From NCBI RefSeq assembly GCF_900184245.1, contig NZ_FXXB01000008.1, positions 558,001 through 622,000 on the forward strand: DNA of 64,000 bases, in the 5' to 3' direction. Of this stretch, positions 1,519 through 60,517 are shown piece after piece. Each line of letters begins with the position of its first letter. Positions within the stretch are counted from its first letter, which is position 1. The position numbers were made by a program, and so were the translations under genes. The notes below the pieces were generated by a model, which worked only from the letters and a program-made list of their open reading frames with translations, searched no databases and had not been told where the DNA came from. The stretch is from Brachybacterium massiliense (GTDB lineage: Bacteria > Actinomycetota > Actinomycetes > Actinomycetales > Dermabacteraceae).

Positions 1519-2559
1519 TCAGGAGAAATGGTCGAAGCCCTCTCCATCGATGGACGCGCCGTCCAGGAGCACTCCCGGCGCCTCTGCTCCGCTCGGCAGC
1601 ACCCGTCCGATCGCGCGGAAGCCCTCCGGCAGCGCGTCGGGCGCGAAGGTCGCGAGCATCGCGTGCTCCTCGGCCCCGTGGAGCACCCACTGCCACGGGT
1701 CCTCCTCCAGCTCGGCGGCGAGCGGGGCGAGCGCGTCCACGTCGAGCTCCAGCGCCGCGCGGTCGAGGTCGAGGGTGACCTGCGAGGCGGCGGCGAGGCG
1801 GCCGCCGTCCCGCACCAGCCCGTCGGAGAGGTCCATCATCGCGTGGGCGGCGCGGCCCCCGCCCCAGCCGAGCGAGAGATCCGGCTCGGGGGCGTCGTGC
1901 CAGCGCAGCAGCTGCGCGGCCGACGGGTCCTGGATGCGGTCGAGCATGATCGTGGGGCGTCCGCCCTCCCCCGGGCGTACGAGCACCCGCTGGGCGAGCA
2001 CCAGGGCGAGGCCCGCCGCGGACCGGCCCAGCCGAGGCGCGCCGATCGCGAGGACGTCCCCCGCGCGGGCGCCGGAGCGGGTAAGGGGGCTCTGCTGCTC
2101 GGGCAGGGATCCGACGGCCGTGACCGTGACGGTCAGGTGCTCGGCGCGGCCCAGATCGCCGCCGACGATGCTCGCGCCGTCGGCCTCCGCGCGTGCGGTG
2201 AGCCCGATCGTGAGCTCCTCGAACACGGAGGCGTGCGTCCCCTCCGGGGCGGAGAGCGAGACCACCAGGGCATGGGGGCGGGCACCCATCGCCGCGATGT
2301 CGGCGAGGTTCTGCACCGCCGCCTTGTGGCCGATCCAGCGCGGCGTGGTGGTGTGGCCGAAGAAGTCGTGTCGCTCGACGAGGGTGTCGGTGGTGATCAC
2401 CAGGCGAGGCGAGGGCAGGCGCACCACGGCGGCGTCGTCCCCGGGGCCGAGCTCGACCTCGGGACCGAGCCGGAGGTGCGGGAGCATGCGGGCCAGGAGG
2501 GCGGCCTCGCCGCGCGGGACGGGGTCGCTCGGGACGGCGAGCAGACGGGAGCGGAGCAC
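1519..2559 (-). CDS. thiL: Thiamine-monophosphate kinase ThiL with acquired N-terminus
   Basis: 346 aa. ThiL phosphorylates thiamine monophosphate to the active cofactor thiamine diphosphate in the cytosol. GPGDDAAVV near residue 38 and TTDTLVERHDF near 56 are the Asp-rich metal/ATP motifs; IVGGDLGR and MMDLSDGL match the family. The first ten residues (MLRSRLLAVP) are identical to those of the divergent DUF3515 lipoprotein because the 5' end lies in a perfect 66-bp inverted repeat. Removing the left arm (2531-2596) would join GT to GAGCGACCCC and give a GTG start with protein SDPVPRGEAALLARM, the expected family N-terminus. The present start is a GTG six bases after TAGGCT (leaderless type). 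The enzyme core is intact, so function is probably retained. Confidence 0.92.
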   Translation of the reverse strand: MLRSRLLAVPSDPVPRGEAALLARMLPHLRLGPEVELGPGDDAAVVRLPSPRLVITTDTLVERHDFFGHTTTPRWIGHKAAVQNLADIAAMGARPHALVVSLSAPEGTHASVFEELTIGLTARAEADGASIVGGDLGRAEHLTVTVTAVGSLPEQQSPLTRSGARAGDVLAIGAPRLGRSAAGLALVLAQRVLVRPGEGGRPTIMLDRIQDPSAAQLLRWHDAPEPDLSLGWGGGRAAHAMMDLSDGLVRDGGRLAAASQVTLDLDRAALELDVDALAPLAAELEEDPWQWVLHGAEEHAMLATFAPDALPEGFRAIGRVLPSGAEAPGVLLDGASIDGEGFDHFS

Positions 2560-2596
2560 GCCGAGAGCCTACCGGTCGGGCACACTGGGAGCATGG
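2531..2596. repeat. Left arm of perfect 66-bp inverted repeat (probable inserted copy)
   Basis: This stretch is the exact reverse complement of 2623-2688; the arms are separated by 26 nt (2597-2622). It carries, reading leftward, the TAGGCT hexamer, the GTG start and 29 nt of coding sequence of thiL. I judge it to be the newer copy, because deleting it recreates a plausible native thiL start. Confidence 0.95.
2566..2571 (-). promoter_or_regulatory. Duplicated leaderless-type -10 element of thiL
   Basis: TAGGCT six bases before the thiL GTG. It is an identical inverted copy of the DUF3515 promoter hexamer at 2648-2653. Confidence 0.5.
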
Positions 2597-2622
2597 ACCG
2601 GGATCGTGGGGGAAGTCGCCTG

Positions 2623-2688
2623 CCATGCTCCCAGTGTGCCCGACCGGTAGGCTCTCGGCGTGCTCCGCTCCCGTCTGCTCGCCGTCCC
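2623..2688. repeat. Right arm of perfect 66-bp inverted repeat (probable original)
   Basis: Contains the -10 hexamer, GTG start and first codons of the DUF3515 lipoprotein. Because these encode a sensible signal-peptide start (MLRSRLLAVPAAALMAVG), this arm is probably the ancestral copy. Confidence 0.95.
2648..2653 (+). promoter_or_regulatory. Leaderless-type -10 element of DUF3515 gene
   Basis: TAGGCT, then six bases (CTCGGC), then the GTG start: the recurring leaderless layout of this window. Confidence 0.5.
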
Positions 2689-3151
2689 CGCCGCCGCTCT
2701 GATGGCCGTGGGCCTGGTCTCCTGCGGCACCGTGCAGGTGCCGGCCGGTCCCGAGGCCGCGCACCCCGTGTGCGCGGACGTGATCCTCGGCGCACCGCCG
2801 GAGGTGCTCGGCATGGAGCGGCAGGAGACCTCGAGCCAGGGCACCGCCGCCTGGGGCGACGGCGAGGACACCGTGGTGATGCGCTGCGGCGTGACCCCGC
2901 CCGGGCCCACCACGGACATGTGCACCCGCCTGGCCGACGGTCAGGGGCTCGAGGTGGACTGGATCGTGCGCGAGCTCGAGGACGGGGTGTTCCTGTACAC
3001 CACCTACGGCCGCGAGCCCGCGATCGACGTCACGGTGCCGCGCTCGGCCAGCCCGGATCAGCCCTCGGGCGCGGCCATCGACCTCGCCCAGGTGGTCACC
3101 CGCAACATCGAGGCGACCGAGCACTGCGTGGGCCCCGGCGACGAGGTGTGA
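2660..3151 (+). CDS. DUF3515-family lipoprotein
   Basis: 163 aa. Residues 1-22 form a lipoprotein signal peptide: MLRSRLLAVP, a hydrophobic core, and lipobox LVSC with C22 as the lipidated residue. The mature part contains paired cysteines (CADVILG, MRCGV, DMC, EHC) typical of a small disulfide-rich extracytoplasmic domain. DUF3515 proteins of unknown function are regularly found between ddl and thiL in actinobacteria, which matches the position here. Start is GTG after TAGGCT-N6. The first codons lie in the 66-bp inverted repeat. Confidence 0.8.
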   Translation: MLRSRLLAVPAAALMAVGLVSCGTVQVPAGPEAAHPVCADVILGAPPEVLGMERQETSSQGTAAWGDGEDTVVMRCGVTPPGPTTDMCTRLADGQGLEVDWIVRELEDGVFLYTTYGREPAIDVTVPRSASPDQPSGAAIDLAQVVTRNIEATEHCVGPGDEV

Positions 3152-60418: not shown

Positions 60419-60453
60419 GCGCCACAGCACCCCGATCTCGGGGGCGGGGATCG
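60419..60453. repeat. Left arm of perfect 35-bp inverted repeat (original)
   Basis: Reverse complement of 60483-60517; loop of 29 nt. In the reconstructed protein this arm encodes the native IPAPEIGVLWR. Confidence 0.95.
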
Positions 60454-60482
60454 GTGCGTAGCGGCGCCGGCCGTGACGCGGG

Positions 60483-60517
60483 CGATCCCCGCCCCCGAGA
60501 TCGGGGTGCTGTGGCGC
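60483..60517. repeat. Right arm of perfect 35-bp inverted repeat (inserted copy)
   Basis: Lies within the extra 50-bp unit bounded by the GGCGCCGGCCG direct repeats. Confidence 0.95.

Follow-up and report, generated by a model that had tools for sequence, protein, structure and literature searches.

An inverted duplication between thiL and a DUF3515 gene of Brachybacterium massiliense is best explained by a template switch placing thiL behind a copied leaderless start

Results

The thiL-DUF3515 interval contains a perfect inverted repeat with 66-nt arms

The window analysed here is a stretch of 64,000 nucleotides (positions 558,001 to 622,000 of NZ_FXXB01000008.1), which forms part of the 1.75-Mb contig C3 in an assembly of 8 contigs and 3.87 Mb. 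Two divergent genes lie near its beginning, namely thiL and a gene encoding a DUF3515 protein. The thiL product belongs to its curated family through TIGR01379 (215.4 bits, cut-off 184.15) and also matches PF00586 (89.2 bits), with an NF004351 score of 301 bits, under the cut-off of 324. The features of this locus are given below in window positions.

1519-2559, minus strand: thiL (thiamine-monophosphate kinase; TIGR01379, PF00586), 346 aa with the copied GTG as start, and native codons again from about 2530
2531-2596, minus strand: left arm of the inverted repeat, putative derived inverted copy of the DUF3515 start region
2557-2559, minus strand: copied GTG, the sole in-frame thiL start ahead of the conserved domain, with an in-frame stop further upstream and three sense codons between
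2566-2571, minus strand: copied -10 box TAGGCT, N6 before the GTG
2581-2595, plus strand: copied thiL unit, CACACT (2581-2586)-N6-ATG (2593-2595), now pointing towards DUF3515
2597-2622, minus strand: spacer, putative remnant of the ancestral thiL 5' end
2623-2688, plus strand: right arm, putative native donor, with both divergent -10-like boxes and the DUF3515 N-terminus
2624-2638, minus strand: putative ancestral thiL ATG (2624-2626) and its CACACT box (2633-2638), intact and out of frame with thiL
2648-2662, plus strand: native DUF3515 unit, TAGGCT-N6-GTG
2660-3151, plus strand: DUF3515 gene (PF12028), on the donor side, from the open reading frame and a family scan

An inverted-repeat search returned exactly the arms of the original prediction: 2531-2596 and 2623-2688 are reverse complements at 66 of 66 nt and are separated by a 26-nt spacer. 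Folded as single-stranded DNA, the 158-nt stretch reaches -105.1 kcal/mol, whereas shuffled sequences average -36.9 (z -21.6) and none of 200 equalled it. As the next longest perfect inverted repeats in the rest of the window (spacer at most 1 kb) measure only 35 nt and 14 nt, the 66-nt repeat is not a matter of chance. Two further parts of the prediction were borne out by the open reading frames, since both thiL (1519-2559, minus strand) and the DUF3515 gene (2660-3151, plus strand) begin with MLRSRLLAVP, and both share TAGGCT-N6-GTG (2566-2571 with 2557-2559 on the minus strand, 2648-2662 on the plus strand). What had not been predicted is that the left arm carries a copy of the thiL unit alongside that of DUF3515, so that both -10-like boxes of this divergent pair are present in each arm.

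The left arm is the derived one by comparison with relatives

A search of the genus gave matches in 37 of 38 genomes, our own included (G029 had none), and 29 loci (L006-L034) out of the 36 matching relatives were taken as the comparison set, the other seven being left out. In all 29 the thiL-DUF3515 interval is without the second arm, and no perfect inverted repeat of at least 18 nt (spacer at most 1 kb) was found across these loci. When inverted, the left arm aligns along its full 66 nt with the DUF3515 start of the relative G027 (89%), and the right arm is an ordinary DUF3515 start region, with TAnnnT-N6-RTG found there in 28 of 29 relatives. The absence of the second arm in relatives, taken together with the inverted alignment, indicates that the left arm arose as an inverted copy placed in the thiL 5' end and that the right arm is native. 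A native arm with a derived inverted copy close to it is what a fold-back inverted duplication consists of. The opposite direction, with the left arm as donor, was ruled out, as it is the right arm that matches the conserved DUF3515 start. None of the 29 relatives has a ThiL that shares the MLRSRLLAVP N-terminus, and the prediction that this N-terminus came with the duplication is thus not refuted. Between the arms there are 0 differences in 66 positions, for which simple arithmetic gives a loose upper bound of about 4.5% divergence.

One may ask whether such a structure was selected as a regulatory element, that is, a long hairpin or a doubled set of divergent promoters acting in regulation or termination. 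Its very stable fold and the presence of both -10-like boxes on each arm would suit this idea; its absence from every relative examined speaks against it, and transcripts from leaderless starts would presumably not hold both arms. We regard it as the least probable of the explanations considered here.

The ancestral thiL start appears intact and out of frame

CA[CG]ACT-N6-ATG stands before thiL in 25 of 29 relatives, and in two more the box is at N7; the remaining loci, L022 and L024, have no such box and carry an in-frame thiL ATG close by. Among the 27 relatives having the element, thiL is in frame with it in 26, L012 being the exception. The same ATG is present in the window, where it reads MAGDFPHDPG (compare MAGDTSHGS in L006 and MAGDVPHSS in L010) and then leaves the thiL frame; it is from this comparison with the relatives' N-termini that the spacer appears to be a remnant of the old 5' end. 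Judging by these comparisons, thiL originally started at the upstream ATG, which has a CACACT box of its own and is intact though out of frame.

It had been predicted that deletion of the left arm would recreate GTG AGC GAC as a natural ThiL start. This text does arise upon deletion. Nevertheless, GTG-AGC was ruled out as the ancestral start, because thiL of the relatives is in frame with, and begins at, the conserved CACACT-type ATG upstream (26/27). Moreover, removing 66 nt, a multiple of 3, does not shift the reading frame; even without the left arm the old ATG would not be in frame with thiL, and therefore bases at a junction or in the spacer must have been altered too.

As to the exceptional relative (G003; L012, 1725-1745), its thiL ATG is out of frame in the absence of any inverted duplication, and an in-frame GTG lies 4 nt upstream. 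This difference might be a sequencing indel or another thiL start shift. It follows that loss of the thiL frame can also arise in other ways.

The copied 66 nt carry a predicted complete leaderless start

In the thiL frame the text reads stop-ALG-VLRSRLLAVPSDPVPRGE, and from the upstream stop to the conserved GE there is no in-frame ATG, GTG or TTG apart from the GTG at 2557-2559. The claim that the left arm supplies a new promoter along with an in-frame start agrees with what we see, namely a -10 box and a sole predicted start. The spacing between the two is over-represented: in a 1.264-Mb sample of the strain's own genome (G000), used for both motif and repeat counts, TAnnnT-N6-RTG occurs 124 times and the N7 form 84 times, against about 33 at other spacings. 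For TAGGCT-N6-RTG the corresponding counts are 9 and about 1, and for CACACT-N6-RTG, 9 and about 3. In 0.4 Mb of G027 the TAnnnT-N6 peak is weaker (36 against about 17) and there is no CACACT-N6 peak (1 at N6). A -10 box placed N6-7 before the start, with enrichment of that spacing genome-wide, which we used as the mark of leaderless initiation, was thus found in the 1.264 Mb, and in weaker form in G027. As the copied unit has just this arrangement, the copied 66 nt would constitute, by sequence, a complete leaderless start.

thiL is probably still in use

The out-of-frame position of the old start could suggest that thiL is no longer expressed and that the in-frame GTG is a coincidence, the more so as a random junction has, arithmetically, about one chance in three of being in frame. 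The gene, however, is the only one above the ThiL cut-off, thiE and thiC are both present in the genome, and the thiL reading frame is unbroken, which makes this reading very improbable. A second thiL copy was ruled out: of four genome matches to the ThiL model only one is above the cut-off, and the next match is one that we take to be SelD. The thiL dN/dS ratio is 0.27 both against G026 and against G027, the two closest relatives (309 codons), and dN on the strain's own branch is 0.070, compared with 0.049 and 0.072 on the other two branches. If the event is young, such conservation carries little weight.

A template switch would account for the duplication and the change of start

We consider it the best explanation, with a probability of about 0.68, that a template switch in the lineage of this strain made the inverted duplication, with thiL falling out of its old frame and now depending on the copied leaderless start. 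In this scenario, fold-back copying on the divergent DUF3515 side would transfer about 66 nt to the thiL 5' end, after which replication would return to the original template. The ancestral leaderless start, CACACT-N6-ATG, would thereby cease to be in frame with thiL, and the leaderless unit of DUF3515, TAGGCT-N6-GTG, would be copied in frame ahead of the gene. ThiL would then be made from the copied start, with the N-terminus MLRSRLLAVP. The original prediction of a template-switch-like event that broke the thiL start and repaired it at once therefore holds in part: a template switch is the best explanation, whereas the start codon itself has not been cut. We infer the replication mechanism and the use of the new start, as well as the idea that break and repair were a single event. 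At the presumed point of return the longest direct repeat has 6 nt and does not exceed chance, as 440 of 500 random comparisons were as good, which speaks against this explanation.

A variant of this explanation, whose odds overlap with it, is a history in two steps, in which the duplication initially either was neutral or kept the old ATG in frame, initiation moved to the copied start, and an indel in the spacer came later. Because the arms match perfectly, the 26-nt spacer is the only place where an indel between the two starts could be hidden, and the frame of the old ATG may have been lost in just this manner. On the other hand, the lack of any difference between the arms leaves little time for a second change, and we find the two-step course unlikely, if still the strongest of the competing accounts.

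Four further candidate inverted duplications are present in the sampled genome

In the 1.264-Mb sample we found four further perfect inverted repeats with spacers of 15-44 nt, one of them in the window and three outside it. They are listed here with window positions for the first and locus positions for the others.

60419-60517, no strand assigned: second inverted duplication, 35-nt arms (60419-60453 and 60483-60517) and 29-nt spacer, from alignment with relatives
L114, 10975-11096: inverted repeat, arms 39 nt, spacer 44 nt, in frame within the N-terminal part of a UPF0102 gene
L129, 4327-4433: inverted repeat, arms 35 nt, spacer 37 nt
L129, 5083-5147: inverted repeat, arms 25 nt, spacer 15 nt, near the end of a DUF222/HNH gene

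With its 50 additional nt, the 60419-60517 event causes a frame shift in a conserved minus-strand gene, which in G027 is a 375-aa frame with no Pfam match. The duplication is missing in all 19 relatives aligned, these loci coming from 19 of 34 matching relatives, and for the extra bases at its junction a nearby match extends over just 11-12 nt and was set aside as their source. For the L114 repeat six relatives were aligned, for the L129 pair one, and the sequence there is variable; for this reason the term "derived" is less firm for these events. By comparison, 1.2 Mb of relatives' sequence contained no perfect inverted repeat of at least 25 nt with a spacer of at least 15, and two inverted repeats with spacers of 0 and 4. 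In the strain's own genome there are also two near-perfect inverted repeats with one mismatch and a 2-nt spacer (L132, 16818-16883; L149, 11067-11124), which are perhaps terminators.

In three of the five events, spacer sequence is repeated exactly beside an arm, over 11, 28 and 23 nt (6, 0 and 0 of 500 random comparisons were as good, respectively). The 28- and 23-nt repeats belong to two of the three L114/L129 events; L114 has an 8-nt repeat, which 150 of 500 random comparisons equalled. An order of arm, spacer, inverted arm and spacer again is the trace that one would expect of a fold-back switch that returned upstream of its point of departure. G-rich tandem-like repeats adjoin the inverted repeat at L129 (4200-4330). 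As the 28-nt spacer repeat adjoins other tandem-like repeats, part of it may predate the event.

That one assembly has several perfect inverted repeats whose spacers reach at least 15 nt, against none in 1.2 Mb of relatives, would also fit a library or assembly artefact, in which hairpin or chimeric reads inserted an inverted copy here and at the other sites. Inverted-repeat chimeras from library preparation have been published (PMC13141652, PMC10908179, as far as their accessible text goes), and the frame of a conserved gene is broken by the 60419-60517 event. Nonetheless, the thiL copy is located some 560 kb into a 1.75-Mb contig, with native sequence resuming at both junctions, its removal would leave the conserved ATG out of frame, and spacer sequence is repeated beside an arm in three other events. 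Furthermore, three of the other four events occupy sites that would be permissive, namely an N-terminal linker, the vicinity of a gene end or the sequence past it. An artefact is in our view a quite unlikely source of the duplication, less so than a silent thiL and more so than the two-step history.

Returning to template switching, the five candidates in 1.264 Mb raise the possibility of a burst in this lineage. Outside the window there are 3 events per 1.2 Mb against 0 per 1.2 Mb in relatives, which corresponds to about 0.13 one-sided (arithmetic), and thus the excess over relatives is not significant alone. Two of these three events lie within 1 kb of each other, and no repeat of at least 25 nt was present in the initial 400 kb of the sample. 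Loss of SbcCD as a cause was not supported: the sbcD match is above the cut-off in an open frame, and sbcC matches are likewise found in an open frame, with the sbcC cut-off reached by 0 of 38 genomes. The thiL junction sequence had 0 matches among viral contigs, which is uninformative.

Discussion

The duplication is real in the assembled sequence and derived, and it is best explained by a template switch through which thiL would have come under a leaderless promoter and start copied from its neighbour. Both hairpins and proteins are known to be edited by template switching. Mutations of the template-switch or quasipalindrome type have been described in E. coli lacZ reporters (PMC7202029), in rRNA hairpins (PMC8794818, which reports stem-half insertions and loop inversions in rRNA of Actinobacteria and Firmicutes) and in yeast coding regions (PMC8604942). 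In the accessible text of these reports, as in our case, copying over a short range yields perfect inverted repeats with a short spacer. The cases described there, however, homogenise, invert or extend hairpins that already exist, while the thiL event comprises 66 nt with no visible earlier repeat, and its copy, unlike theirs, carries a promoter and a start codon; the term "start codon" is absent from the main text of PMC8604942.

TAnnnT boxes about 12 bp before the start mark leaderless starts, which are frequent in Actinobacteria according to the accessible part of PMC3160421 (see also PMC3898074 for leaderless genes with TAnnnT). TAGGCT-N6-GTG and the N6 peak of this genome resemble that published signal, but the thiL start unit differs from the leaderless genes described there in being a duplicate of its neighbour's. 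Activation of bacterial genes by tandem duplication, or fusion of gene fragments by deletion, has also been reported (PMC11111574; preprint PMC12803068), and there too, as far as the accessible text goes, a rearrangement provides a new 5' end or promoter. What sets thiL apart is that a 66-nt inverted duplication from a divergent neighbour would have done so, with the old frame lost. Among the matches listed (titles and abstract openings, and few subscription papers), there was no report of a short inverted duplication that had copied a promoter together with a start codon in a bacterium. The mutational class is therefore known, and re-start of a bacterial gene by it was not found in the literature searched.

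A broader proposal, which we hold to be tentative and rather doubtful, is that a gene can be re-started in one step by inverted duplication across a divergent leaderless pair, and that this lineage is perhaps in a burst of template switching, a natural fold-back mutator. By such a route the neighbour's 5' end would arrive as a promoter and a start pointing into the damaged gene, and would be in frame in about one case in three. The additional events within the genome would make both rate and mechanism testable. If our explanation of the thiL locus is true, one switch separates a gene from its start and yet supplies it with a copied promoter and start codon, and actinobacterial genes, many of which are leaderless, would have a way to switch starts and N-termini at once.
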